From an uncultured Pelagibacteraceae bacterium (GTDB taxonomy: Bacteria > Pseudomonadota > Alphaproteobacteria > Pelagibacterales > Pelagibacteraceae): a stretch of 39,174 nt of DNA. Every line of letters starts with the position of its first letter. Positions within the stretch are counted from its first letter, which is position 1. Location: the NCBI GenBank assembly GCA_902515185.1, contig CABXTN010000010.1, positions 1 through 39,174 of the forward strand, read 5' to 3'. A model generated the notes under the pieces. That model did not search any database and was not told the origin of the DNA. It saw only the letters and a program-made list of their open reading frames with translations. Of the stretch, positions 683 to 36,639 are shown piece after piece. Both the position numbers and the translations under genes were made by a program.

Positions 683-1411
683 ATGAAAATAACTGAATTA
701 CAAAAAGATTTAGCAGCTACATTTAGGTGGACTGCAAGATTAAATATGAATGAAGGGGTTGCAAACCATTTTAGTGCGTGTGTGCCTGGTTCTTCTGGTG
801 GATTTTATGTCAACAAGGCTGGTATTCATTTTAGTCAAATTAAAGCTAGCGATTTAATTTTAGTAACAAATGATAATATTGAAGATCTAAAAACTAAACC
901 AGATGTTGTGGATGCTACAGCAATAAGTATTCATGGCACAATTCATCAAAAAGTACCTCATGCAAAATGTATATTTCACGTACACTCAAAATATGCAACA
1001 GCCCTATCAACTCTAAAAGATCCTACTCTTCCTCCAATAGATCAAAATACAATGAGATTTTATAATAGGGTCTCTTTATACGATGAGTATGGTGGTATGG
1101 GTTTTGAAGAAGAGTCATTGAAGATGGCAGCAGCGTTAGGGAATAAACAAAATTTATTAATGGCAAACCACGGAATTTTAACTACTGGTGAAACTATTTC
1201 AGATGGATTTGATGCCTTATATTATTTTGAAAGATCTGCTGAGACTTATTTAACAGCTTTAGCAACTGGTAAAGAATTAAATATAGCGTCCCACGAGGTA
1301 GCAGAAAAAACTGCTCAAGAATGGTCTGATTATCCATCAGATAATGGAAGAGCTCATTTAGATCAAATAAGATTGATTTTAGATAAAGAAGAACCCGATT
1401 ATAAAAATTGA
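683..1411 (+). CDS. Class II aldolase/adducin family protein
   Basis: A 242-residue soluble protein of the zinc-dependent class II aldolase/adducin fold. The metal-site histidines are visible as HVHSKYATAL (His99, His101) and ANHGIL (His163). At the place where fuculose-phosphate aldolase has its catalytic Glu (PSSEWRFH), this protein reads AISIHGTIHQ, so it need not be a true aldolase and may be a decarboxylase, epimerase or dehydratase-like member. It is separated by one base from the dioxygenase downstream and is probably co-transcribed with it and the GMC enzyme. The ATG at 683 follows the AT-rich divergent spacer. Family firm, reaction unknown. Confidence 0.85.
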   Translation: MKITELQKDLAATFRWTARLNMNEGVANHFSACVPGSSGGFYVNKAGIHFSQIKASDLILVTNDNIEDLKTKPDVVDATAISIHGTIHQKVPHAKCIFHVHSKYATALSTLKDPTLPPIDQNTMRFYNRVSLYDEYGGMGFEEESLKMAAALGNKQNLLMANHGILTTGETISDGFDALYYFERSAETYLTALATGKELNIASHEVAEKTAQEWSDYPSDNGRAHLDQIRLILDKEEPDYKN

Positions 1412-1412
1412 A

Positions 1413-2243
1413 ATGATTAAAACTAATTTACTATCAGGCGCATTAGGTGCAGAAATCACAGGTGTAGACCTAAAAGATTCAACGACCGAAAATTGGAATA
1501 AAATTAATAATTTATTATTAGAACATAAAGCACTTTTTTTTAGGAACCAAGATATATCATCCAAGGAACAAATTAACTTGGCTAAACATTTTGGACCTTT
1601 GGAAAAACATATTTATGTAAAGGGAAGAGAAGAATATCCAGAAATTTTGAGAATAATTAAAGAACCAGATGAAAAGCATCAGTGGGGTGAAACTTGGCAC
1701 ACTGATGTTAGTTATAATCCAAAACCAACAAAGGTGATTATTTTAAGATCTTTAAAAATACCACCCGTAGGAGGAGACACAATGTTTTCCAATATGGAAA
1801 TAGCTTATGAAACATTAGAAGACAAAATAAAAGATAAAATAAAAGATAAAAAAGCAGTTCATAGCTCTTTAGGTGCCGCTGCTTTTGTTGATGCCTACAA
1901 TGCTATGGAGGGTAATGGTAACCTAAATGAATATTCAAATATACATCCTGTAGTTCGAACTCATCCTGAAACTGGAAAAAAAATATTATATGTAAATTCA
2001 ATGTATACAAAAAGAATTTTAGATATGGAAGAGAATGAAAGTGATGAAATTTTGGATAAAATTTTTAGACACCAAGAGAGATTGGATTTTACATGTAGAT
2101 TTAAATGGACTGAAAATGCTGTAGCAATTTGGGATAACAGAAGTACATTACATCAAGGACTAACGGACTTTTTTCCAGGTAGAGGCTTAGGACACGAAAG
2201 AGTGATGGACAGAATTGCTATAGAGGGTGATCACCCACAATAA
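1413..2243 (+). CDS. TauD/TfdA family Fe(II)/2-oxoglutarate dioxygenase
   Basis: A 276-residue protein, close to the usual 280-300 for the family. The iron ligands are seen as WHTDVSY (His96, Asp98) and TLHQG (His247), and Arg263 (GHERVMDR) is placed to bind the 2-oxoglutarate carboxylate, as in TauD. Such enzymes hydroxylate a small acid, sulfonate or trimethylated amine using 2-oxoglutarate and O2. The substrate cannot be read from sequence. The ATG lies one base after the stop of the upstream gene. An in-frame 12-nt tandem repeat around 1820-1850 encodes a charged KDKIKDK stretch. Confidence 0.9.
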   Translation: MIKTNLLSGALGAEITGVDLKDSTTENWNKINNLLLEHKALFFRNQDISSKEQINLAKHFGPLEKHIYVKGREEYPEILRIIKEPDEKHQWGETWHTDVSYNPKPTKVIILRSLKIPPVGGDTMFSNMEIAYETLEDKIKDKIKDKKAVHSSLGAAAFVDAYNAMEGNGNLNEYSNIHPVVRTHPETGKKILYVNSMYTKRILDMEENESDEILDKIFRHQERLDFTCRFKWTENAVAIWDNRSTLHQGLTDFFPGRGLGHERVMDRIAIEGDHPQ

Positions 2244-2253
2244 GAGTATTACT

Positions 2254-3837
2254 TTGAAATTTGATTATTTAATTATTGGAGCAGGAACAGCTGGATGTGT
2301 TTTGGCTAACAGATTGTCAGAAAAAATTCAAAATAATGTTGCTATTTTTGAAGCTGGTAAAAAAAGTGATATTTGGAAAGTAAACATGCCACTTGCTATT
2401 CTTTATGCAATGCATGATCCAAAATATAATTATAAGTATTATTCTGAACCTGAGCCATATTTAAATAATAGAAGATTATTTTGCCCAAGAGGTAAGATGA
2501 TTGGGGGATGTTCTGCTCACAATGGTATGGTTTATGTAAGAGGTAATAAAAATGATTATGACAGGTGGGCATCATTTGGTCTTAAAGACTGGAGTTATGA
2601 AAAAGTTTTACCTTTTTTTAAAAAAATAGAAACATGGTCTGGTGGGGAAAATAAATATAGAGGTGGAGATGGCATACTTCCAATTAATCAATCAAAAAAT
2701 AAAAATCCATTATTTAAGGCATTCCTGAATTCTGCAAAAGAAGCAGGATATAAAATTAACAGCGATATGAATGGCGAAAACCAAGAGGGATTTGGTATGT
2801 ATGATGTTACCATTCATGAGGGTGAAAGAGCTAGTGCATCAAAATATTATTTAAATTCAGTAAAAAATAGAAAAAATTTAAATATATTTACTGAGTCTTT
2901 TGTTGAAAAAATAATTTTTGATGGAAGGAAAGCAATTGGAATTGAAGTTAAGATAAAAAATAAAGTTAAAAAAATTTACGCTAATAAAGAAGTTATTCTT
3001 AGTGGAGGATCGATAAATTCACCTCAATTGTTAATGGTATCAGGTGTAGGTCCTGGTGCACATTTAAAAGATAAAGGAATTGAAACTATTCATAATATGG
3101 ATGGGGTTGGTAAAAATCTTCAAGATCATCTTGAAACATACATACAACAAGAATGCAAAACTCCGGATACTTTATACACTTATGTGAATAAATTTAATAT
3201 GATTAAAGCAGGTATACAATGGTTTATAAATAAAAGTGGTCCCTGCTCGACTTCATTCTTAGAGGCTGGTGGTTTTTGCAAATCTTCTTCTGATAAAGAA
3301 TATCCAAATATACAATTTCATTTTTTTCCTGCATTTGTAATAGATCATGGAAAAGTTGATCCAGATAGACATGGATATCAGTTGCATGCAAGTTTGAATC
3401 AACCAAAAAGTAGAGGTCATATAACTTTAAACAGCTCTAACCCATATGATTATCCTAAAATACAATTTAATTATTTGGAGAATGAGTACGATCTTAATGA
3501 AACAGTAAAATGTATTCATGTTGCTAGAAAAATATTAAGTCAAAGTTCAATGAAACCTTACGCAGGAAAAGAAATCGGACCTGGGGAAAATGCTAATGAT
3601 AAAAAACAAATAGAGAGTTATATAAGATCAAAGGCAGAAACAGCTTACCATCCATCATGTACACTAAAAATGGGTACTGATAACTCAGCGGTTGTTGACG
3701 AAAAATTAAAAATTCATGGTTTAGAAAATATTAGAGTCGCTGATGCTTCCGTTATGCCAGAGATTACAAGCGGTAACTTAAATGCTCCAACATTAATGAT
3801 AGCAGAGCGTGCTGCAGATTTTATTTTAAATTCTTAA
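2254..3837 (+). CDS. GMC family FAD-dependent oxidoreductase (choline/alcohol dehydrogenase-like)
   Basis: A GMC flavoprotein of about 527 residues. It opens with the FAD dinucleotide motif DYLIIGAGTAGCVLANRL, has the GMC signatures MIGGCSAHNGMVYVRG and SGGSINSPQLLMVSG, and ends with AYHPSCTLKMG (catalytic His) and RVADASVMPEITSGN. Relatives oxidise choline or other primary alcohols to aldehydes. I chose TTG at 2254 because it gives the typical MKFDYLIIGAG start and is preceded at good spacing by AAGAG just after the dioxygenase stop. An in-frame GTG at 2227 would overlap that gene by 17 nt and add nine unlikely residues. The substrate may be a product of the neighbouring dioxygenase or aldolase-like enzyme, by inference. 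Confidence 0.88.
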   Translation: MKFDYLIIGAGTAGCVLANRLSEKIQNNVAIFEAGKKSDIWKVNMPLAILYAMHDPKYNYKYYSEPEPYLNNRRLFCPRGKMIGGCSAHNGMVYVRGNKNDYDRWASFGLKDWSYEKVLPFFKKIETWSGGENKYRGGDGILPINQSKNKNPLFKAFLNSAKEAGYKINSDMNGENQEGFGMYDVTIHEGERASASKYYLNSVKNRKNLNIFTESFVEKIIFDGRKAIGIEVKIKNKVKKIYANKEVILSGGSINSPQLLMVSGVGPGAHLKDKGIETIHNMDGVGKNLQDHLETYIQQECKTPDTLYTYVNKFNMIKAGIQWFINKSGPCSTSFLEAGGFCKSSSDKEYPNIQFHFFPAFVIDHGKVDPDRHGYQLHASLNQPKSRGHITLNSSNPYDYPKIQFNYLENEYDLNETVKCIHVARKILSQSSMKPYAGKEIGPGENANDKKQIESYIRSKAETAYHPSCTLKMGTDNSAVVDEKLKIHGLENIRVADASVMPEITSGNLNAPTLMIAERAADFILNS

Positions 3838-11808: not shown

Positions 11809-12198
11809 ATGAATAAAATTCTTGTAGAGGTATCTGTCGGAGAACTATTAGATAAGTTATCTATTTTGGAAATTAAAAAAGAAAAAATTAAAGATAATGA
11901 CAAGCTCAAATATATAAATGAAGAATATGTCATTTTAAAGAATCAATTTGAAGAAAATGTTAAAATTGATGAAAAACTAAATAAACTTTTCAAGTCACTA
12001 AAAGACATAAATAATAAACTCTGGGATATCGAAAATGAAAAAAGACTATGTGAAAAAAATTTAGATTTTGGAGAAATTTTTATAAAAATGTCAAGAGATG
12101 TTCATTTTTTTAATGATAAAAGAGGAAAGATAAAGTTAGAAATAAATAATTATACAGGTTCAAAAATTAAAGAGATTAAAGAATATACGGGATATTAA
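11809..12198 (+). CDS. DUF6165-like protein of unknown function
   Basis: A 129-residue, highly charged, mostly helical soluble protein. The N-terminus ILVEVSVGELLDKLSILEIK followed by heptad-like Lys/Glu helices matches what I recall of DUF6165, a family often found among lipopolysaccharide glycosyltransferase genes. A coiled-coil is likely over residues 20-75. No enzymatic motif is visible. It is divergent from the GT9 gene and shares a TTAA stop overlap with the ABC permease that faces it. Confidence 0.65.
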   Translation: MNKILVEVSVGELLDKLSILEIKKEKIKDNDKLKYINEEYVILKNQFEENVKIDEKLNKLFKSLKDINNKLWDIENEKRLCEKNLDFGEIFIKMSRDVHFFNDKRGKIKLEINNYTGSKIKEIKEYTGY

Positions 12199-12866
12199 TA
12201 ACTATATTTTTTTTCTAGGAACTTAATTAAATTGTGAATCAAAAAGGTCATAAATAAGTATATTCCACCTGCAACAATGAATACTTCAACTGGTTTAAAC
12301 GTGGTTGATATTATGTATTTTGCTACTCCAGTTAAATCCATAAGCGTTACAGTGCTTGCTAAAGAAGTGCCCTTTAGCATTAATATAATTTCATTACCAT
12401 AAGCTGGGAGAGATTGTCTAATAGCTATAGGAACTTGAATTTTATAAAAAATTATTTTTGATTGTATTCCAAGACTTTTACCTGCCTCTATAAAACCAGG
12501 TTTGATTGTTTGAAAAGCTGATCTTAAAATTTCAGAAGTATAAGCTCCTGTATTAAGCGCAAATGCTATAATCGCACACCAGTATGGTTCTTTTAGTACT
12601 ACCCATAAAAAAGATGATCTTAAATACTCTATCTGACCAAGTCCAAAATAAATTATAAATATTTGGACCAATAATGGTGTTCCTCTAAATATATATGAAT
12701 ACCCATAAGCAAATTTATTGATAAAGGGATTTTTATTTAATCTCAATATAGCAAAAAATAATCCTAAAAATAGTCCAAGCACCAAAGATACAGAAAGTAA
12801 TTTTAATGTAATCAAAGTGGCATTTAGTAACTTTGGAAAGCTAGTTATCATTAAATCTAAATCCAT
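12195..12866 (-). CDS. Polar amino-acid ABC transporter permease (HisM/ArtM type)
   Basis: A 223-residue inner-membrane protein with about five helices. The EAA loop that docks the ATPase is visible as EAGKSLGIQSKIIFYKIQVP (about residues 127-146), preceded by YTSEILRSAFQTIKPG. It forms the heterodimeric channel with the permease upstream, whose stop overlaps this start by one base. Imports a polar or basic amino acid delivered by the binding protein at 13603-14430. No ATP-binding subunit lies in this cluster. Confidence 0.92.
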   Translation of the reverse strand: MDLDLMITSFPKLLNATLITLKLLSVSLVLGLFLGLFFAILRLNKNPFINKFAYGYSYIFRGTPLLVQIFIIYFGLGQIEYLRSSFLWVVLKEPYWCAIIAFALNTGAYTSEILRSAFQTIKPGFIEAGKSLGIQSKIIFYKIQVPIAIRQSLPAYGNEIILMLKGTSLASTVTLMDLTGVAKYIISTTFKPVEVFIVAGGIYLFMTFLIHNLIKFLEKKYSY

Positions 12867-13558
12867 TAGTATCCCTTGCTATATTTAATTTCTAATTGAT
12901 TAATTAATTTCATACTTAAAAAAGTTAATAACAAGTATAATATTGCTGCAAAGGAGTAGAAGAAAAGTGGATCTCTTGTTGAGCCAGCGGCGATGTATGA
13001 TTGTCTCATTATTTCTACTAAACCTGTCACTGATATTAATGAAGTATCTTTTAATGTAATTTGCCAAACGTTACTTAAGTTTGGAATTGCAAGTCTTAAC
13101 ATTTGGGGCATAATAACTTTAACAAAATGAATTGGTTTTTTTAAACCCAAAACTTTTGAAGCTTCAAACTGTCCTTTATCTATTGACTGAATAGCGCCCC
13201 TAAAAACTTCAGTTGAATATGCTCCTGAAATAATTCCAATAGCAAAAGATCCGGTTATAAAAGCATTTATTTCAATATAATCATTATATCCAAATATGGA
13301 GGCTACAAACATTACTGCCCCACTACCACCAAAGAAAAATAAATAAATTACCAATAATTCTGGAACACCTCTAATTACTGTTGTGTAACAATTTGCAATT
13401 AGATTTAGAAATTTATTTTTTGATAATTTTAATGGAGTAAAAATTAAAGCAAAAATGAAACCTATCAACAAAGCTGTTATTGAAACAGCAATTGTCATTA
13501 ATGTGGCAATGAATAACTCATCTCCCCATCCTGTTTTTCCAAATGCTAGAAGTTCCAT
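12866..13558 (-). CDS. Polar amino-acid ABC transporter permease (HisQ/ArtQ type)
   Basis: A 230-residue five-helix permease. YSTEVFRGAIQSIDKGQFEA leads into the EAA loop EASKVLGLKKPIHFVKVIMP, and the WQITLKDTSLISVTGL segment is typical of HisQ-like subunits. It partners the permease immediately downstream (one-base overlap). It lies 44 bp after the binding-protein gene, with a GC-rich hairpin in between that may lower permease expression relative to the binding protein. Confidence 0.92.
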   Translation of the reverse strand: MELLAFGKTGWGDELFIATLMTIAVSITALLIGFIFALIFTPLKLSKNKFLNLIANCYTTVIRGVPELLVIYLFFFGGSGAVMFVASIFGYNDYIEINAFITGSFAIGIISGAYSTEVFRGAIQSIDKGQFEASKVLGLKKPIHFVKVIMPQMLRLAIPNLSNVWQITLKDTSLISVTGLVEIMRQSYIAAGSTRDPLFFYSFAAILYLLLTFLSMKLINQLEIKYSKGY

Positions 13559-13565
13559 ATAGACT

Positions 13566-13588
13566 GGCGACTATATATCATAGTCGCC
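13566..13588 (-). terminator. Strong hairpin between binding-protein and permease genes
   Basis: GGCGACTA (13566-13573) and TAGTCGCC (13581-13588) form a perfect 8-bp stem with a 7-base loop. In this AT-rich window such a stem stands out. It sits between the binding-protein stop and the first permease start on the same strand. No U-tract follows on the minus strand. It is therefore more likely an attenuator or a 3'-protecting stem that lets the binding-protein message accumulate than a full terminator. Function inferred from position. Confidence 0.5.
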
Positions 13589-13602
13589 AAATCTAAAATC
13601 AT

Positions 13603-14430
13603 TTACATAGAAGCGTCGAAGCCAAACCATTTAGTAGCAATTCTACTAATGTCACCATTTTTTCTTGCTTTATCAATGGCTCTATTAAAGGCATTTAAAA
13701 GTTCTGTATCATCTTTTCTAATACCAACCCCAACACCATTACCAAATGCACCACCAGAAAATGTTGGTCCAACTAAAACTACAGATTTTCCCGATTTCTC
13801 TGCGTAGTCCGTAAATGCAACAGCTGCTGCTAACGCAACATCACATCTACCTGAAGTTAAATCTAAATTAACTTCATCTTGAGTTTTGTAAGTTCGAACA
13901 TTTATTTTTCCTACATCACCAGACTCTAAAAAATTTTGGTGAATTGTAGCTGTTTGTGTACATACAGTCTTACCAGCTAAAGCAGATGTTAAAGTTTTAA
14001 GATCTTTCTTAACTGCACCTGTCTTTTTTGTAAGATTAATCCCTTCAGAAGTATCAATACCCTCAAGGTCTGAACCTTTCATAACAGCTAACGATGCAAC
14101 TTCGTCAGCATAACCTTGTGAAAAACTAATTGCTTTTTGTCTTTCTGCAGTAATAGACATACCTGCCATTATAGCATCAAATTTTCTCATGATTAGTGCT
14201 GGAATCATGCCATCCCAATCTTGTTCAACAATTTCACACTGCTGTCCTATATATCTACAAAGTGTCCAAGCCAACTCAACTTCAAATCCAATTAATTTAC
14301 CTGAAGCATCTTTGGAATTCCATGGTGGATATGCACCCTCTGTGCCTATTCTTATTTTATCAGCGTTAGCAGATATTGTTAAAAATAAACTTAACAACAA
14401 TCCTAAGCTGAATTTTTTAATTATATTCAT
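13603..14430 (-). CDS. Polar amino-acid ABC transporter periplasmic binding protein (HisJ/ArtJ-like)
   Basis: A 275-residue solute-binding protein. MNIIKKFSLGLLLSLFLTISANA is a signal peptide, with a probable cut after ANA. The mature start KIRIGTEGAYPPWNSKD, GFEVELAWTLC, QDWDGMIPALIMRKFDAIMAGMSITAERQK and the closing ISRIATKWFG are family-3 (lysine/arginine/ornithine/histidine) signatures, so a basic or polar amino acid is the likely ligand. It lies 57 bp downstream of speD/speE on the same strand. A strong GGAGGAG ribosome site precedes the start, fitting high expression of a binding protein. Confidence 0.92.
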   Translation of the reverse strand: MNIIKKFSLGLLLSLFLTISANADKIRIGTEGAYPPWNSKDASGKLIGFEVELAWTLCRYIGQQCEIVEQDWDGMIPALIMRKFDAIMAGMSITAERQKAISFSQGYADEVASLAVMKGSDLEGIDTSEGINLTKKTGAVKKDLKTLTSALAGKTVCTQTATIHQNFLESGDVGKINVRTYKTQDEVNLDLTSGRCDVALAAAVAFTDYAEKSGKSVVLVGPTFSGGAFGNGVGVGIRKDDTELLNAFNRAIDKARKNGDISRIATKWFGFDASM

Positions 14431-14487: not shown

Positions 14488-15528
14488 TTATTTATTTAAG
14501 GACGATGCAAAGTTCCAAGAACAATCAAAGCTTGGAATATAAATTCTATCTAAAGATGTATTACCAAAGCTTTTTTCAAATAAATTTAGCCATTTATCTA
14601 CTTGTTTTGGTTTTTTGTCTTGGCTTCCTACTTGAGCTGTAATTGTTCCATTTGATTTTAAAATTCTTTTTAAAGAATTTATATTTTTTGCTGCAAGATC
14701 TATACAATATTGATCATCATTCAAATCAACAAATATTTTGTCATATTTATTTTCTTCTACTTTTTTAATACTTTCAAATGCATCGCCCCAAACACACTTT
14801 ACAGAATTTTTTGTAGTAGCTTTTTCACCTATTTTGGATAAATGTTTGTCACAAACATGAACAACTTCAGGATCTAATTCGTACCAATCAATTAAATTAA
14901 ATCCTTTAGAAATAAGTTCTCTTGCTACACCACCATCTCCACCACCAATTATCGCTGATTTATCTTTGTTAGGATTTAGTTTTAAACCTGAATTTACAAA
15001 TGTTGAACTATATAGGTGTTCGTCACTTTCAGCTACTTGTAGTTCATTATCAATGAATAAAGACTTACCAAATTGTTCCAAATCTAAAATTTCAATATGT
15101 TGGCCCACTTTCGAAGTAAAATCTTCCAATATATTTCTAACCATGTAGTATTTTTTTAGTCCAGGTGAACTATAAATATCATCGTAATAACTTACAGTGT
15201 CTCTATTAAATTCTTTTTTAACTATACGTTTATGTTTAATTTCTTTTTTTAGAACTTCTAGAGCAACAATTGGATTTACTTTGCCACAAGTAAAAAAATC
15301 AAAGCTTATTACCCCTTTTTCTGGAAATGTATGAAAACTTATATGGCTCTCAGCTAATAAAGCAACTAGAGTGAACCCTTGAGGTTCAAATTTATATTTT
15401 GAAATCTCTAAAACAGTAACCTTTGCTTTTTTTGCAATTTTATAAACTAATTTTTCAAAGAATTTAGGTTCATATTCTTTGCTCGCTCCAATAATATCAA
15501 GAGTAATATGCTCCCCTACTTTGATCAT
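14488..15528 (-). CDS. Fused S-adenosylmethionine decarboxylase - spermidine synthase
   Basis: A 346-residue fusion. Residues 1-115 are a prokaryotic AdoMet decarboxylase: AESHISFHTFPEKG gives Ser61 (pyruvoyl precursor, after Glu60) and His66, and Cys81 lies in FFTCGKVNP. These have the same spacing as Ser63/His68/Cys83 of Thermotoga SpeH. From about 115 to 346 it is an aminopropyltransferase, with YYMVRNILED at its start, FIDNELQVAESDEHLYSSTF, the SAM-site IIGGGDGGVARE (193-204), WYELDPEVV and VDLNDDQY. One chain would thus make decarboxylated AdoMet and transfer its aminopropyl group to putrescine, giving spermidine and methylthioadenosine. It is the last gene of an operon whose other members degrade methylthioadenosine. 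Autocleavage at Glu60-Ser61 would split off a short N-terminal beta chain. Confidence 0.93.
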   Translation of the reverse strand: MIKVGEHITLDIIGASKEYEPKFFEKLVYKIAKKAKVTVLEISKYKFEPQGFTLVALLAESHISFHTFPEKGVISFDFFTCGKVNPIVALEVLKKEIKHKRIVKKEFNRDTVSYYDDIYSSPGLKKYYMVRNILEDFTSKVGQHIEILDLEQFGKSLFIDNELQVAESDEHLYSSTFVNSGLKLNPNKDKSAIIGGGDGGVARELISKGFNLIDWYELDPEVVHVCDKHLSKIGEKATTKNSVKCVWGDAFESIKKVEENKYDKIFVDLNDDQYCIDLAAKNINSLKRILKSNGTITAQVGSQDKKPKQVDKWLNLFEKSFGNTSLDRIYIPSFDCSWNFASSLNK

Positions 15529-15540
15529 AAAAAGTTACTC

Positions 15541-16200
15541 CTAGTTTTTTTTATAACTTTTAGTTTTTTCTAAAATTTTATTCATTTCTTCAAATGAAAG
15601 AATCTTAGGCTCTCCTAATTTTATTGCATTTATATATTGATGACAAATATTTTCTACCTCTTGTGCAAGTTCAAATGCTTCCTCCAAATTTTTGCCCAAT
15701 GCAACCTGTCCGTGGTTTGACATCAGGCATGCCTTTCTCTTTTCAAGAGCTATAAGCATATTTTCAGATAATTCTTTAGTTCCAAAAGTTGCATATTCTG
15801 CACATTTAATATCGTCACCGCCAGCCAAAGCGACCATATAATGGAACGCTGGTATATTTTTTCTGTGAGCAGAAACTGCTGTAGCATGTGGGGAATGGGC
15901 ATGTACTATTGCTAATGCATCACTCTTGTTAATGTAAATATCTTGATGAAATCTCCATTCAGATGATGGATTTAAACTATCTTTAATTATTTTATCATTA
16001 TTTAAAGTTTCATCTAGCTCTAAGAAAACAATACTTTCTTCTTCGAGTTGATCATATTTTATTCCTGAGGGTGTTATGAAAAATCCCTTTTTTCCATTTT
16101 GCTCTGTTCTGATAGATATGTTTCCTGATCTTAAAGGCGATAATTTAGAACTATTAAGTTGTTTTGCATATTTAATAACTGCTAATCTTAAATTATCCAT
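15541..16200 (-). CDS. FucA-type class II aldolase, probable 5-methylthioribulose-1-phosphate aldolase
   Basis: A 219-residue zinc aldolase. Compared with E. coli FucA all key residues are present at a constant +8 offset: Glu81 (PSSEWRFH), His100 and His102 (VHAHSPHATA), Tyr121 (FHYMVA) and His163 (SNHGQV). The IKCAEYATFGTKELSENM segment is almost FucA-like. No fucose genes are near; instead it sits between mtnA and the spermidine synthase. The likely substrate is therefore 5-methylthioribulose-1-phosphate, cleaved to DHAP and methylthioacetaldehyde as by Ald2 of the DHAP shunt. The alternative, a MtnB dehydratase, is less likely because that enzyme lacks the FucA acid/base Tyr and no other late methionine-salvage gene is seen. 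Confidence 0.85.
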   Translation of the reverse strand: MDNLRLAVIKYAKQLNSSKLSPLRSGNISIRTEQNGKKGFFITPSGIKYDQLEEESIVFLELDETLNNDKIIKDSLNPSSEWRFHQDIYINKSDALAIVHAHSPHATAVSAHRKNIPAFHYMVALAGGDDIKCAEYATFGTKELSENMLIALEKRKACLMSNHGQVALGKNLEEAFELAQEVENICHQYINAIKLGEPKILSFEEMNKILEKTKSYKKN

Positions 16201-16403
16201 TACTTATTTAAGCTTTTACTTATTTCAGTTTCACAAAAAGATTTAATATCTTCAATATTTCTGTCTTTATAGATTTTTTTTTGAGCAATTATACAAGCTT
16301 TCATAGATTTGCTTAGACTAAAAGACCCATATTCTATTCTAGAAACATAAAGCATTATAAATGCTATTATTAAAAATAATATGTAGTACAAATTTTTTTT
16401 CAT
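16200..16403 (-). CDS. Small single-pass membrane protein inside the MTA operon
   Basis: A 67-residue protein I do not recognise. MKKNLYYILFLIIAFIMLYV is a signal anchor, followed by a basic/polar outer part with two Cys (CIIAQKK and FCETEIS), possibly disulfide-bonded in the periplasm. It looks real because its start overlaps the mtnA stop by four bases (ATGA) and its stop overlaps the aldolase start by one base, so it is translationally coupled on both sides. Function unknown. Confidence 0.68.
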   Translation of the reverse strand: MKKNLYYILFLIIAFIMLYVSRIEYGSFSLSKSMKACIIAQKKIYKDRNIEDIKSFCETEISKSLNK

Positions 16404-17470
16404 TTAAACAATTTTTTTAAACCATTTTCAGATGCTTCACAAATTCCTTTTTCAGTAATTAGCTTAGTAACATATTTTGCTGGCGTAATATCAAAAGCTA
16501 AATTGACGGATTTACTTTTCTTGGGATATATCTGAACCTTAATGATATTTCCATTTTCGTCTAGACCTTCTATTTTCGATAGTTCATCAGAGTTTCTTTT
16601 TTCAATTGGTATATCTTTTGAGCTTTTAGTTTCCCAATCAATTGTTGAACTTGGTAAAGCAACATAAAATGGTATATTATTATCTTTTGCGGCCAGAGCC
16701 TTTAAGTAAGTTCCTACTTTATTACAAACATCACCGTTAGCTAATGTTCTATCTGTACCAACTATACACATATCAACTTCACCTCTATTCATTAATATAC
16801 CGCCTGTATTATCTGCTATGATTGTATTTTTGATTTCCTCCTCATTAAGCTCGTAAGAAGTTAAATTTGCTCCTTGATTCCTAGGTCTTGTTTCATCTAC
16901 CCATACATGGATTGGAATTCCTTTTTTATGAGCATGATAAATTGGTGAAGTTGCAGTACCCCAATTTATTGTTGCTAACCATCCTGCATTGCAATGAGTT
17001 AAAATATTTACTGGTTTCTTTTTTTTATTATAAATTTCTTCAATAATTTTCAATCCATGCAAGCCGATATTTTTACAAAAGTTAATGTCTTCCTCACATA
17101 TTTTTTTTGCCTCACTCAATGCTATTTCTAAAATTTTATCACTGTTAATTCCTGATAATTTCTTCATCATTCTATCAATTGCCCACTTTAAATTAATTGC
17201 TGTTGGTCTAGAATTTATTAGCCCCTCTGCAGATTTTTTTAAAAAAGTTTGATCATTACTTTCTAAAATAGCTAATACAATACCATATGCAGCAGTGGCC
17301 CCAATTAAAGGAGCGCCCCTAACTTCCATTAATTTGATTGAATTAATTGCATCTTTAACTGTTTTTAGATCTTTAATAATAAATTTATGAGGTAATTTAG
17401 TCTGATCAATTATTTTCACACAATCGTTTTCAAACCAAATTGTTTTATAATCTTTACCTTCTATTTTCAT
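16400..17470 (-). CDS. mtnA: S-methyl-5-thioribose-1-phosphate isomerase
   Basis: A 356-residue enzyme of the MtnA/eIF2B-alpha family that turns methylthioribose-1-phosphate into methylthioribulose-1-phosphate. RGAPLIGATAAYG (51-63), LTHCNAGWLATINWGTATSP with Cys160, and IVGTDRTLANGDVCNKVGTY with Asp240 are present. Cys160 and Asp240 match the catalytic pair of the Bacillus enzyme in both identity and number, setting it apart from eIF2B-like paralogues. It overlaps the GFA-like gene upstream by one base and the small membrane gene downstream by four. Confidence 0.96.
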   Translation of the reverse strand: MKIEGKDYKTIWFENDCVKIIDQTKLPHKFIIKDLKTVKDAINSIKLMEVRGAPLIGATAAYGIVLAILESNDQTFLKKSAEGLINSRPTAINLKWAIDRMMKKLSGINSDKILEIALSEAKKICEEDINFCKNIGLHGLKIIEEIYNKKKKPVNILTHCNAGWLATINWGTATSPIYHAHKKGIPIHVWVDETRPRNQGANLTSYELNEEEIKNTIIADNTGGILMNRGEVDMCIVGTDRTLANGDVCNKVGTYLKALAAKDNNIPFYVALPSSTIDWETKSSKDIPIEKRNSDELSKIEGLDENGNIIKVQIYPKKSKSVNLAFDITPAKYVTKLITEKGICEASENGLKKLFK

Positions 17471-17910
17471 TATTTAATTCTATTTAAACTTTCAGTTGGC
17501 CAAATTTTTTCTCTATCATACATTTTGTCATAGCAAATTGATTTATCAGATATTTCAATCCAAGGATCTTTATCTTTTACAAAAATATGAGCTTGTGGTT
17601 GTATAGGATTATTTAGCGTTTGTGATCTCACAGCAACTCTACCGGTTGATATATTGTATCTACAAAAAACGTATACGCCGCAAATTATACAAAAATATGC
17701 ATTTACACCCTTTCCACTCCCAGTCGGGAGTTCAATTGACGCAATATCTCCCTCGACCTCCAAATCTTTCTCAAGAACCATTGTGTGTATTACGAAAGAA
17801 GAGCCTGTAGATTTTTTACAATCCTTACAATGACAAGCTTGAGTAAATAATGGATTGTTTTTTATTGTATACTTAACATTATTACACCCACAACTTCCTT
17901 TTAAATTCAT
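17470..17910 (-). CDS. GFA family (Mss4-like) zinc protein
   Basis: A 146-residue protein of the glutathione-dependent formaldehyde-activating (GFA) family. Zinc ligands appear as GSCGCNNVKY (start), QACHCKDCKKSTGSSF (about 25-40) and AYFCIICGVYVF (about 71-82). Many members have no proven formaldehyde activity. Its start overlaps the mtnP stop by four bases and its stop overlaps the mtnA start by one, so it belongs to the methylthioadenosine operon. A role in handling an aldehyde-thiol adduct from that pathway is only a guess. Confidence 0.82.
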   Translation of the reverse strand: MNLKGSCGCNNVKYTIKNNPLFTQACHCKDCKKSTGSSFVIHTMVLEKDLEVEGDIASIELPTGSGKGVNAYFCIICGVYVFCRYNISTGRVAVRSQTLNNPIQPQAHIFVKDKDPWIEISDKSICYDKMYDREKIWPTESLNRIK

Positions 17911-18776
17911 TTATTTAAAACTCTCCCAGCTACTGTTTTGAGCTTATCTTTGGTTTTTTTTGTTCTTTTCTCCGGAGCTGTAATGATTGCTACATCTAAA
18001 CAATTATTTGTTGGATCCTTTGGATCTATATGACTTTCAAAATTATCAATTAAATTTTTAATCATGCTTTTAGCTTTCGAAGCATTGCCTAAAAGAACTT
18101 TAATAACTTGTTGAACATCAACATTTTCATGATCTGGATGCCAACAATCATAATCAGTTACCATAGAAACAGATGCATATCTAATTTCAGCTTCTCGAGC
18201 TAATTTTGCCTCTGGCATATTGGTCATACCAATTACATCGGCTTTCCAAGACCTATATAAATTGGATTCTGCTAAAGTTGAAAACTGAGGACCTTCCATG
18301 ACAACATATGTTCCACCTTTTTGATAACTAATTTTTTCTTTTTTAATTGCCTCTTCACAAGCATTCATTAATCCATTAGATGTAGGATGAGCCATTGACA
18401 CGTGGGCAACTATTTCATCATCAAAAAAAGTTTTATTTCTAGAAAAAGTTCTATCAATAAATTGATCCACAATTACAAACTTTCCAGGTGGTAAATTCTC
18501 TTTTAATGAACCAACTGCAGAAATAGATATTATATCTGTAACACCACACTGCTTTAATGCATCAATATTTGCCCTAAAATTTATTTTAGATGGTGAAATA
18601 AAGTGTCCTTTACCATGTCTTGGTAAAAAAAGAACTTCTTTTCCATTAAAATTAGTTTTTAATATTTTATCGGATGGTGAACCCCATGGAGTTTTTATGT
18701 TTAAAAATTCACGATCTTTAAACTCCTCAACGTCATAAAGACCACTGCCTCCGATAATTGCTAATTTATTTGTCAT
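17907..18776 (-). CDS. mtnP: S-methyl-5'-thioadenosine phosphorylase
   Basis: A 289-residue enzyme of the PNP/MTAP family 2. LAIIGGSGLYDVE (phosphate loop), PRHGKGHFISPSKINFRANI, ISAVGSLKENLPPG, VVMEGPQFSTLAESN, and GMTNMPEAKLAREAEIRYA are the MTAP signatures, and Asp in MVTDYDCW favours 6-aminopurines. It cleaves methylthioadenosine with phosphate to adenine and methylthioribose-1-phosphate. It is the first gene of the operon running down to speD/speE, and it is divergent from apt, which uses the adenine it releases (40-bp spacer). Confidence 0.95.
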   Translation of the reverse strand: MTNKLAIIGGSGLYDVEEFKDREFLNIKTPWGSPSDKILKTNFNGKEVLFLPRHGKGHFISPSKINFRANIDALKQCGVTDIISISAVGSLKENLPPGKFVIVDQFIDRTFSRNKTFFDDEIVAHVSMAHPTSNGLMNACEEAIKKEKISYQKGGTYVVMEGPQFSTLAESNLYRSWKADVIGMTNMPEAKLAREAEIRYASVSMVTDYDCWHPDHENVDVQQVIKVLLGNASKAKSMIKNLIDNFESHIDPKDPTNNCLDVAIITAPEKRTKKTKDKLKTVAGRVLNK

Positions 18777-18816: not shown

Positions 18817-19344
18817 ATGAATTTAAAAGATTATATTAGATCAGTCCCAGATTATCCAAAAAAAGGAATATTGTTTAGAGATATTACAACACTTATTAAA
18901 GATGAAAATGCTTTTATAAAAACAATAGATGAAATAATTGCAAAATCAAAAAAATTCAAAGTTGATAAAATAGCAGCTGTAGAGTCCAGAGGTTTTGTTT
19001 TTGCTGCTGCTGTTTCATATATGTTGAAAAAACCTTTTATAATGCTTAGAAAAAAAAATAAGCTTCCTGCGGAAACTTATTCGACTAACTTTGATTTGGA
19101 ATATGGCTCTGCTACAATTGAAGTACATAAAGATTCTATTGAAAAAGGTGATTCTGTATTAATCATAGATGATTTGATTGCAACTGGTGGGACCGCTAAG
19201 GCAGCTGCAAAACTAGTAGAAATTTCTGGTGGAATTGTGTCTGGTTATATATTTGTTATCAATCTTTTTGACTTAGGGGGGTGCGATAATTTAATTAAAG
19301 CAGGATATAAAGTAGAAAATCTAATAGAGTTTCAAGGTCATTAA
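18817..19344 (+). CDS. apt: Adenine phosphoribosyltransferase
   Basis: A 175-residue type I phosphoribosyltransferase. It begins MNLKDYIRSVPDYPKKGILF with the APT-typical FRDITTL, has AVESRGFVFAAAVSY and RKKNKLPAETY, and the PRPP loop VLIIDDLIATGGTAKAAAKL (about 115-134). It makes AMP from adenine and PRPP. Placed divergently from mtnP, it recycles the adenine set free from methylthioadenosine during spermidine synthesis. Confidence 0.96.
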   Translation: MNLKDYIRSVPDYPKKGILFRDITTLIKDENAFIKTIDEIIAKSKKFKVDKIAAVESRGFVFAAAVSYMLKKPFIMLRKKNKLPAETYSTNFDLEYGSATIEVHKDSIEKGDSVLIIDDLIATGGTAKAAAKLVEISGGIVSGYIFVINLFDLGGCDNLIKAGYKVENLIEFQGH

Positions 19345-28474: not shown

Positions 28475-28551
28475 TGGTAGCGGGAAGTGGGATCGAACCA
28501 CTGACCTCGGGCTTATGAGTCCCGCGCTCTAACCAACTGAGCTACCCCGCC
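28475..28551 (-). tRNA. tRNA-Met (CAT), elongator type
   Basis: A 77-base cloverleaf with encoded CCA. On the minus strand it starts GGCGGGGTAGCTCAGTTGG; the D-stem GCTC/GAGC, the T-arm AGTGG-TTCGATC-CCACT and the acceptor stem (7 bp with G-U pairs at both ends) all form. The anticodon CAT is at 28515-28517 in loop CTCATAA. The 5' half is very like the Rickettsia elongator tRNA-Met and lacks the C1-A72 mismatch of initiators. Base pair 31-39 is an A-G mismatch. An Ile2 tRNA (lysidine at C34) cannot be fully ruled out. It lies inside the polysaccharide island. Confidence 0.93.
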
Positions 28552-34177: not shown

Positions 34178-34195
34178 AAGATGAGTATTCATCTT
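34178..34195 (-). terminator. Hairpin just after the DMGDH gene
   Basis: AAGATGA (34178-34184) and TCATCTT (34189-34195) form a perfect 7-bp stem with loop GTAT that begins at the DMGDH stop codon. No U-tract follows on the minus strand; a smaller GGA/TCC stem adjoins it at 34169-34177. It could be a weak terminator or an RNA-processing stem ahead of the 66-residue gene. Confidence 0.38.
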
Positions 34196-36639
34196 CAGAT
34201 TGTTTTATAATTATTCTGATTTAAGGCCTTCGGTAAATACTCCGCCTCATACTTAGACTTTCCAACTTCAATGTAAATTTTATGCTTACTTGTATCAAGA
34301 TTATTTAAGTCTCTATTTACATACCCAAATGTTAAATTTTTATTAAAATTAAATGAATAGTTCCCGGAGGTAGTTCTTCCTATAATTCTATCATCTAAAT
34401 AAATTGGCTCGTCATGTAATAAGAGAGGCTCTCCCGGCTTTTTATCCTTTAATGTTAGCATAATCATTTTTTTTTGATTTTTCTTATCTTTAATTTTTAA
34501 TAGAGCTTCTTTACCTAAAAAATTTACATTTTTTTTATAACTAATAGCAAAATCTAATCCTGCTTGATATTGGTTTTCTTCAGGCGATATATCATGACCC
34601 CAATGTAAAAATCCATTCTCCATACGCATAGTATCCATTGCGTGCATGCCACAATGTGTAAGATTATGATTAATCCCCTCTTTAGTTACTGCTTTATAAA
34701 GCTGTTTAGCATGAGCGGTTTCTATATATAATTCAAAACCTATTTCCCCTACATAAGATAGTCTTTGAGCCCATAACTTCATGTCATTAATTTTTACGAA
34801 CTTTCCTGTGCCAAATTTAAAATTTTCGTTTGAAAAATTATCTTGGCTTATTTCAGATAATAAATCACGAGATTTTGGTCCGAACACTCCTAAACAACAA
34901 TATTTATCAGTAACATCCTCAAAAATAATATCCTTTGATATATTGTTTAAAATGAAAAACTTATCTCTTTCTCTTGTTGCTGCTGAGCTTATTATTCTAA
35001 AATAATTTTTTTCTAGACAAACTACAGTACAATCGATTTCAATTCCTCCATCTTTATTCAGTATTTGAGTGTAAGTCGTTTTTCCATTTATAGATTTTAT
35101 ATTAGCTGTACATATTCTTTGTAATTCATCAAAACTTCCTTCTCCTTTTAAATCGAATTTTGAAAATGGTGTTAAATCAAATAAACCTACATTTTTTTTT
35201 GTATTTTTTGTTTCTTTTTCTACTGATGGATACCAATTTTGATATCCATAACTATATTTATATTCTGGGGGAGACCCATTTAAATTAAACCACATTGGTC
35301 TTTCGAAACCACCAGAGACACCAAAGCAAGCACCTGCTGCTTTCAACTCTTCATGATATGGAGTTATTTTTTGGTTTCTAGATGTTTTATGTTGTTTGTA
35401 AGGCCAATGCATTCCATAAAGATCACCAAGTGTTTCAGTAATACGCTCTTTAATAAAATTTATATTTGAATGGAAATTTTGAAATCTTTTAATGTCATAT
35501 ATAAATAAATCCTCGTTTATATGACCATTCATCATCCACTCAGCGGTAACTTTTCCAACACCACCACCACTTCCAATTCCAATACTATTTAAACCACAGC
35601 ATGCAAAAAGGTTTTTAAAACCAGGCACCTCTCCTAATAAACTGTTTGTATCTGGTGTAAACGACTCTGGTCCTGAAAAAAATTTTCGTATTCCAGCAGT
35701 TTCTAGAATAGGAAATCTTTTTATTGCAGCTTTTAAATATGGTTCGAAGTGATCAAAATTTTCAGGTAACTCACCAAAAGAAAAATCTTCAGGAACTAAA
35801 TTAGTTTTTTCAAATGCAGGTATTGATTTTCCCTCAAAAATACCAACCAATATTTTTCCTGCATCTTCCTTTATGTATGTTCGATTATCAAAATCTCTTA
35901 TTACTGGTAAAGTTTTTGAAAGGTTATCTATCGCCTCTGTAATAATATAAAAATGTTCAGCTGGATACAAAGGTATGCTCGCTCCTATTTTTTCCCCTAT
36001 TTGTCTTGACCACATTCCAGATGCTAATACAACATATTCACAATCTATATCTGTTCCATTAACTCTCACGCCTGCAATTCTTTTATTTTTAATTAAAATT
36101 TTTTCAACAGGTGACTTTTCAAATATTTTTGCACCTTCTAATTTAGCAGCTTTTGCCAACATATGTGTAACACCTGAAGGGTCTGCTGCACCATCTCCTG
36201 GCATAAAAATTCCACCAATAACATTCTCTGTATTTACTATTGGAAATTTTTTTTTAATATTTTCTTTATCAAAAATTTTTACATCAACATTATAAAGCTG
36301 TGCTGTGGTGGCTTGTCTTTTTAGCTCTTCCCATCGCCCTTCATTTTCAGCTATCGAAAGTGCACCATTCAATCTAAGCCCTGCAGAATGATCGACTTTT
36401 TTTTCTAATTCTTTATATAAGTCTAAAGTATATTTTCTTATTTTTGTTATTCCCGCAGATGGTCCTAGTTGACTTACAAGACCTGCAGCATGCCAAGTTG
36501 TGCCTGATGTGAGCTGGTCTCTCTCAAGTAGAATAGTATCTTTCCAACCAAATTTTGCTAAGTGATAAGCAACAGAACAACCTATTACCCCTCCTCCAAT
36601 TACAACCACCTTGCAACTTTTGGGTAATTTTTTGTTCAT
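34195..36639 (-). CDS. Dimethylglycine/sarcosine dehydrogenase-type FAD oxidoreductase with GcvT domain
   Basis: An 814-residue two-part enzyme. Residues 1-400 are a DAO-type flavoprotein: VVVIGGGVIGCSVAYHLA binds FAD and SGTTWHAAGLVSQLG has His50, the residue that carries covalent FAD in mammalian dimethylglycine dehydrogenase. Residues about 425-810 are a tetrahydrofolate-binding aminomethyltransferase domain (GACFGVSGGFERPMWF, GLFDLTPFSKFDL, YVGEIGFELYI, CGMHAMDTMRMENGF). It would demethylate dimethylglycine or sarcosine and pass the one-carbon unit to folate. Its start overlaps the SET-domain gene stop by one base. Confidence 0.9.
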   Translation of the reverse strand: MNKKLPKSCKVVVIGGGVIGCSVAYHLAKFGWKDTILLERDQLTSGTTWHAAGLVSQLGPSAGITKIRKYTLDLYKELEKKVDHSAGLRLNGALSIAENEGRWEELKRQATTAQLYNVDVKIFDKENIKKKFPIVNTENVIGGIFMPGDGAADPSGVTHMLAKAAKLEGAKIFEKSPVEKILIKNKRIAGVRVNGTDIDCEYVVLASGMWSRQIGEKIGASIPLYPAEHFYIITEAIDNLSKTLPVIRDFDNRTYIKEDAGKILVGIFEGKSIPAFEKTNLVPEDFSFGELPENFDHFEPYLKAAIKRFPILETAGIRKFFSGPESFTPDTNSLLGEVPGFKNLFACCGLNSIGIGSGGGVGKVTAEWMMNGHINEDLFIYDIKRFQNFHSNINFIKERITETLGDLYGMHWPYKQHKTSRNQKITPYHEELKAAGACFGVSGGFERPMWFNLNGSPPEYKYSYGYQNWYPSVEKETKNTKKNVGLFDLTPFSKFDLKGEGSFDELQRICTANIKSINGKTTYTQILNKDGGIEIDCTVVCLEKNYFRIISSAATRERDKFFILNNISKDIIFEDVTDKYCCLGVFGPKSRDLLSEISQDNFSNENFKFGTGKFVKINDMKLWAQRLSYVGEIGFELYIETAHAKQLYKAVTKEGINHNLTHCGMHAMDTMRMENGFLHWGHDISPEENQYQAGLDFAISYKKNVNFLGKEALLKIKDKKNQKKMIMLTLKDKKPGEPLLLHDEPIYLDDRIIGRTTSGNYSFNFNKNLTFGYVNRDLNNLDTSKHKIYIEVGKSKYEAEYLPKALNQNNYKTI

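Follow-up and report, generated by a model that had tools for sequence, protein, structure and literature searches.

In SAR11 bacteria, the methylthioadenosine (MTA) released by a fused AdoMet decarboxylase–aminopropyltransferase may be cleared by an operon-linked DHAP shunt, in which a plain class II aldolase and an aldolase-dehydrogenase have repeatedly taken each other's place at the locus. The aldolase-dehydrogenase, which also stands beside mtnA elsewhere in the Alphaproteobacteria, would give the shunt a novel version: with NAD+, methylthioribulose-1-phosphate would be turned into DHAP and methylthioacetate, and no reactive aldehyde would be left. Taken whole, this is a proposal that we hold to be evenly balanced between right and wrong. 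SAR11 is among the most abundant bacterial groups in the ocean, and the surroundings of the fusion, with their MTA-disposal genes and aldolase exchange, matter more than the fusion itself. A literature search found nothing joining SAR11 with the DHAP shunt, or mtnA with an aldolase-dehydrogenase. It also found no account of the fate of the MTA methylthio group in SAR11; mtnA, mtnP and methylthioribose were not found in the main text of PMC8437039, which may nonetheless mention them.

The gene run ending in speDE

The window, which is the whole 39,174-nucleotide stretch analysed, comes from an uncultured Pelagibacteraceae genome of 1,036,643 bases in 45 contigs (86.6% complete). On its minus strand lies a run of six genes, in which successive genes overlap by 4, 1, 4 and 1 bases and the final gap, between the aldolase gene and speDE, is 12 bases. 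This tight spacing suggests that all six are transcribed together. The first gene, mtnP (17907–18776), encodes MTA phosphorylase (NF006492, 448.6 bits against a cut-off of 437; TIGR01694, 316.5 against 274.85). It is followed by the gene for a GFA-domain protein (17470–17910; PF04828, 90.5 bits), which is inconstant in relatives, and by mtnA (16400–17470), which encodes methylthioribose-1-phosphate isomerase (TIGR00512, 417.6 bits; cut-off 279). A 67-residue ORF (16200–16403) overlaps both neighbours and has no Pfam match over cut-off; tblastn recovered it from some relatives and not from others. Next is the gene for a FucA-like class II aldolase (15541–16200; Aldolase_II, 168.5 bits), the proposed methylthioribulose-1-phosphate aldolase, and speDE (14488–15528) closes the run. 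What lies between mtnA and the aldolase gene varies, and a different ORF, of 107 residues, stands there at L042:5034–5357. At another locus, a 266-residue ORF with no NCBIfam match lies between mtnP and mtnA (L084:1804–2604, plus strand).

Divergent from mtnP, on the plus strand, is apt (18817–19344), which encodes adenine phosphoribosyltransferase (TIGR01090, 195.9 bits; cut-off 185.85). Downstream of speDE are genes for an amino-acid ABC transporter, comprising a binding protein (13603–14430, minus strand; SBP_bac_3) and permeases (12866–13558 and 12195–12866; BPD_transp_1). This transporter adjoins speDE in many, not all, relatives. At L042–L045, for example, the counterpart of window positions 12195–14430 is missing from this place, and the next matched gene encodes a glycosyltransferase.

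At gathering scores, the only Rfam match in the window is one tRNA (28478–28551, minus strand), with no riboswitch over the run. Between positions 13400 and 19000, promoter-like sites are fewer than the mean for shuffled sequence (24 against 30.7) and terminator-like sites more numerous (5 against 1.6); none of the latter is positioned to decide where the run ends. Elsewhere in the window, another class II aldolase (NF005689, 313.9 bits; cut-off 260), a TauD-type dioxygenase and a GMC oxidoreductase are encoded consecutively at 683–3837 on the plus strand. An 814-residue DAO/GCV_T protein, which from its domains we take to be of the dimethylglycine or sarcosine dehydrogenase type, is encoded at 34195–36639 on the minus strand.

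The speDE fusion protein

The speDE frame begins with an ATG at 15528 and continues for 346 residues without a stop; the plus strand over 14488–15528 has stops throughout. The first-pass annotation had described this uninterrupted frame at the correct coordinates, and had left out that it is on the minus strand. The AdoMet decarboxylase part spans approximately residues 1–110 and the aminopropyltransferase part approximately residues 115–346. Pfam matches are to AdoMet_dc (residues 7–109, 95.9 bits; cut-off 25), Spermine_synt_N (residues 119–167, 25.5 bits; cut-off 22.1) and Spermine_synth (residues 170–338, 74.2 bits; cut-off 22.9). The protein also clears the NCBIfam equivalog for AdoMet decarboxylase, TIGR03330, with 97.9 bits against a cut-off of 75.65. 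It falls below two NCBIfam equivalogs for spermidine synthase/aminopropyltransferase, TIGR00417 (92.7 bits; cut-off 249.55) and NF002010 (116.7 bits; cut-off 260).

Conservation was counted over 140 distinct speDE proteins drawn from the fetched relative loci. Residues Glu60 (codon at 15349–15351, minus strand), Ser61, His66 and Cys81 are identical in all 140. Ser61, the predicted pyruvoyl residue, is encoded at 15346–15348 on the minus strand, as positioned from the ATG at 15528. In the class 1b AdoMet decarboxylase of T. maritima, self-processing and catalysis are assigned to residues S63, H68 and C83 (PMC10407285), and S61, H66 and C81 of the window protein are their equivalents. Residues Pro69 and Pro86 are likewise invariant (140/140), and either may be the proline that separates AdoMetDC from SpeD-derived ADC.

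The motif GGGDGGVARE occupies residues 195–204; the aminopropyltransferase signature GGG(D/E)G(G/A) and both transferase domains are present. Within this motif G195–G197, D198 and G200 are invariant; D198, G200, E217, D268, L269, N270 and D271 show zero variation among the 140 proteins, D272 varies in one of them and G82 in eight. The spermine synthase pattern described in PMC11107197, an Asp in motif 2, a Gly two residues on and a Glu in motif 3, is found as D198, G200 and E217 in 140/140, with E217 the presumed motif 3 Glu. The catalytic residues lie where the first-pass annotation had placed them, and the transferase motif that it named is present. Its reading of the frame as a class 1b AdoMet decarboxylase joined to an aminopropyltransferase is upheld by the Pfam domains, by TIGR03330 and by the invariant catalytic residues.

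An AlphaFold2 model of the protein, built from 26 aligned rows, has a mean pLDDT of 85.6 and a pTM of 0.66; confidence is lowest at residues 1–4 and at the domain joint, residues 109–111. Of 50 PDB structure matches listed for the model, the six best are chains of human spermine synthase (TM 0.60–0.64). These chains align over 355–366 columns and are, among the matches listed, the only ones to reach at least 355; the remaining 44 align over 229–252. Their rmsd of 8.3–9.0 indicates that the relative placement of the domains in the model is different or unsure. Animal spermine synthase is reported to derive from a bacterial fusion of the AdoMetDC–aminopropyltransferase type and, unlike the window fusion, to have lost the decarboxylase (PMC12803844).

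The fusions of Ca. Pelagibacter ubique HTCC1062 (WP_011282223) and Ca. Pelagibacter sp. HTCC7211 (WP_008544956) have an identical domain order and come from the same bacterial order. Both restored spermidine in an Escherichia coli speD deletion; in a speE deletion, spermine and thermospermine were made, and norspermidine was made from diaminopropane (PMC11107197). In PMC8437039, Green et al. 2011 is cited for the fusion, and the SAR11 enzyme is proposed to work in the reverse direction as well. Given this published activity and earlier citation, the fusion itself is already known. It is ordinary for SAR11, and the window adds one more orthologue of a characterised family. The window protein belongs to another species and the activities shown in E. 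coli belong to its relatives; that it is the SAR11 orthologue of the known AdoMetDC–aminopropyltransferase fusion is nonetheless highly probable. The tested orthologues also make spermine, thermospermine and norspermidine, and the two transferase equivalogs are below cut-off, so the label 'spermidine synthase' given in the first-pass annotation is right as to an aminopropyltransferase and too narrow as a name.

By the conserved residues, the proenzyme would cut itself between Glu60 and Ser61 into a 60-residue β chain and a 286-residue α chain, the latter with the pyruvoyl group at its start and carrying the transferase, as the first-pass annotation had predicted. The fusion may channel decarboxylated AdoMet, a further suggestion of that annotation. 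By analogy with the two relatives expressed in E. coli, the fusion would decarboxylate AdoMet and move the aminopropyl group to putrescine and then to spermidine, giving spermidine with some spermine or thermospermine; each aminopropyl transfer would release MTA. Putrescine could be supplied by either of two proteins of the PF02784 ornithine/arginine decarboxylase family, which match over cut-off in the source genome (G000:C16:3675–4403 and C5:53060–53761) and are candidates for putrescine or lysine synthesis. A tested Pelagibacter homologue is an arginine decarboxylase (PMC9992855).

Distribution of the fusion

The fusion was matched in 128 of 197 genomes of the SAR11 order, and all 128 belong to one family, f1 (144 genomes; 49 further genomes without a match were taken as outside f1 from the order of the list). 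The remaining 16 f1 genomes have no match. The first-pass annotation had called such fusions known but uncommon. They are known, two SAR11 orthologues having been assayed, and in this family they are the rule. It had also raised a stop codon hidden by sequencing error and absence from close relatives as grounds for doubt, and had proposed a survey of Pelagibacterales. Across the 197 genomes, no match contains a stop and 123 of the 128 are full length, and neither ground for doubt is borne out. The five partial matches are in G110, G118, G132, G145 and G171, and those in G118 and G171 reach a contig end. Among 80 of 581 confirmed places, the nearest named relatives of the source genome, itself a SAR11 genome, are uncultured Pelagibacteraceae and Ca. 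Pelagibacter ubique SCGC AAA795-M22, the latter at 89%. The window fusion is 77% identical to those of G011 and G013.

A search of the class matched 159 of 385 genomes, f1 included, and among the matches listed many class genomes carry the two parts as separate adjacent frames. Three single-frame cases were examined among these, and further candidates include G203, G318 and G421. One of the three, a separate AdoMetDC–transferase fusion of 445 residues with an intact motif, occurs in another alphaproteobacterium (L143:919–2256, minus strand). The other two alphaproteobacterial fusions (L141:1189–2586, plus strand; L142:1198–2463, minus strand) join a transferase to a decarboxylase-like domain with an altered ESH..H motif, and in both cases a separate decarboxylase match lies approximately 1–3 kb off on the same contig. 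Close kinship of the L142 fusion with animal spermine synthase was considered and rejected, since the L142 transferase is closest to E. coli SpdSyn (3o4f, 225.8 bits; 3c6k, 57.4). One scan of viral contigs, with a reach limited to close relatives, gave nine pattern matches to speDE and no relative.

A probable DHAP shunt for methylthioadenosine

Aminopropyl transfer releases MTA directly, and the run therefore reads as polyamine synthesis followed by phosphorolysis, isomerisation and splitting of this by-product. The first-pass annotation says nothing of these adjacent genes. The DHAP shunt enzymes MTA phosphorylase and methylthioribose-1-phosphate isomerase are both represented by equivalogs over cut-off. 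MtnP would convert MTA into adenine and methylthioribose-1-phosphate and MtnA would then isomerise the latter, after which the class II aldolase probably cleaves methylthioribulose-1-phosphate into DHAP and methylthioacetaldehyde. On this predicted enzymology, the run is probably an MTA-to-DHAP shunt serving polyamine synthesis.

The aldolase (15541–16200) scores 192–194 bits with the best FucA models and 57.3 bits with MtnB (cut-off 137.05), every model being below its cut-off. Among PDB entries, it matches FucA (1fua) with 166 bits and 6btd, which we take to be the 5-deoxyribulose-1-phosphate aldolase of B. thuringiensis, with 129 bits. As no aldolase model reaches its curated cut-off, the substrate is not proven, and 5-deoxyribulose-1-phosphate derived from 5′-deoxyadenosine is possible.

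The DHAP shunt of Rhodopseudomonas, Rhodospirillum and some E. coli comprises MtnP, or a nucleosidase with MtnK, followed by MtnA and Ald2 (PMC5893883, PMC10986504), and MtnP, MtnA and a class II aldolase are grouped likewise in the window. In R. palustris, MtnP–MtnA–Ald2 is a proven route that is used aerobically (PMC5893883). In E. coli, the shunt supports growth on supplied nucleosides and has no significant role in clearing the cell's own MTA (PMC10986504). The SAR11 genes differ from these in sharing a run with an MTA-producing polyamine fusion and in the repeated replacement of the aldolase by an aldolase-dehydrogenase.

Exchange of the aldolase in SAR11

Loci such as L079, L083, L084 and L086 have no class II aldolase gene; there, mtnA and speDE are separated by a gene on the other strand, whose 677-residue product combines class II aldolase and SDR domains in one chain. 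This protein (L079:3881–5914, minus strand), which is also found at L106, L116 and L144–L161, clears NF006192 with 888.9 bits against a cut-off of 639 and falls below the rhamnose-enzyme model TIGR02632 (427.7 bits; cut-off 567.75). NCBIfam names the NF006192 subfamily by its domains only. The gene lies always opposite to speDE and 73–112 bases upstream of it at 38 loci, several of which are second copies of one place. At the same loci, mtnA is mostly 3–5 kb upstream, 12 kb in three, and elsewhere beyond the stretch covered.

Co-occurrence was tabulated for the 144 f1 genomes, counting matches with an E-value no higher than 1e-20 (1e-3 for speDE). The combination of speDE, mtnA and the class II aldolase is present in 95 genomes, and that of speDE, mtnA and the 677-residue protein in 19; both aldolases together, or speDE and mtnA with neither, occur in 0/144. 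All 114 f1 genomes with speDE and mtnA therefore carry exactly one of the two aldolases, which is a strong and testable hint at the function of the aldolase-dehydrogenase subfamily. An aldolase without mtnA was found in three genomes: in G036 and G167, it lies at a contig end, and in G194, only residues 154–218 are matched. Fourteen genomes have none of these genes. Another 11 have speDE but neither mtnA nor either aldolase; the shunt is thus not required for the fusion (11/128 speDE genomes), and MTA in these genomes must go elsewhere. At loci of this kind, such as L125 (G011), L120, L113, L114 and L130, mtnP was not found between apt and speDE.

On a rapidly built tree of the fusion (139 proteins), the distribution of the two aldolase states needs 16 changes, and the well-supported branches alone force 8 changes for the group with the 677-residue protein. 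The tree covers a single gene, speDE, and leaves 65 of its 136 inner branches unsettled; any recombination here would make the number of changes too high. From these sequences, the two aldolases appear to have been exchanged repeatedly, a lead worth testing. In the minority of relatives that have it, the 677-residue protein would take over the aldolase step and probably oxidise the aldehyde.

The aldolase-dehydrogenase outside family f1

In two f2 genomes, apt, mtnP, mtnA and the aldolase/SDR gene are co-directional, with no speDE in the stretch (L162:4731–9216 and L163:4092–8556). The aldolase/SDR gene of the first is at L162:7192–9216 on the plus strand. Across 289 genomes of the class, 59 homologues of the aldolase-dehydrogenase were found in 57 genomes. 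Among the 49 with at least 38% identity, 45 come from mtnA-bearing genomes; 26 are encoded no more than 3 kb from mtnA, all of them downstream on the same strand, and 23 do not adjoin it. None of the 10 homologues below 35% identity adjoins mtnA, and three are in genomes that have it.

A similar architecture of class II aldolase and SDR in one chain is found in RhaEW, the rhamnulose-1-phosphate aldolase/lactaldehyde dehydrogenase. RhaEW needs NAD+ and yields DHAP and L-lactate, and its orthologues are reported to lie always in rha loci (PMC3870299). The 677-residue protein differs in that it fails TIGR02632, passes NF006192 and adjoins speDE or mtnA, not rha loci. By analogy with RhaEW, it should make DHAP and methylthioacetate.

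Alternative readings

Two alternatives concern the fusion. That a frameshift or assembly error has fused two genes has a negligible probability: the two parts are often separate adjacent frames elsewhere in the class, among the matches listed, but an identical open frame recurs in the 123 full-length f1 matches and in the 80 loci kept from separately assembled named records, which rule out a hidden stop or an assembly artefact. A decarboxylase domain switched to arginine or ornithine would produce agmatine or a diamine instead of decarboxylated AdoMet. Substrate switches are widespread among SpeD homologues (PMC10407285; PMC9992855), and a pelagiphage homologue is an arginine decarboxylase (PMC9992855). 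Against such a switch here, TIGR03330 is passed, speDE is the sole PF02675 match in the source genome at its 86.6% completeness, and the SAR11 orthologues rescue the speD deletion (PMC11107197); we judge it very improbable.

The identity of the shunt itself is open to two other readings. The class II aldolase could be MtnB, the dehydratase of oxygen-dependent methionine salvage, with which it has a superfamily in common and whose place beside mtnA and mtnP would fit. This is unlikely, since MtnB scores far below FucA models that are themselves below cut-off, and since acireductone dioxygenase (MtnD) is over cut-off in none of the 197 order genomes, with one weak match in G007 and a control passing in 2/14 genomes. 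The two MtnB matches in the source genome are both below cut-off, and replacement by an aldolase-dehydrogenase in 19 genomes also argues for an aldolase. Somewhat less unlikely, though still doubtful, is that MtnP, MtnA and the aldolase mainly clear 5′-deoxyadenosine from radical AdoMet enzymes, with speDE adjacent through shared regulation or chance. Like enzymes handle 5′-deoxyadenosine in other bacteria (PMC10986504). The speDE genomes lacking mtnA and both aldolases are in keeping with this, as are the two f1 genomes with mtnA and no speDE (G144 and G168, the latter with stops in mtnA) and the two f2 genomes that carry the cassette without speDE. The 677-residue gene, for its part, is not co-directional with speDE, which counts against a shunt serving polyamine synthesis. 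That shunt is favoured by the tight gene overlaps, by the direct release of MTA in aminopropyl transfer and by the joint distribution of speDE and mtnA, which are present together in 114 of the 144 f1 genomes and absent together in 14.
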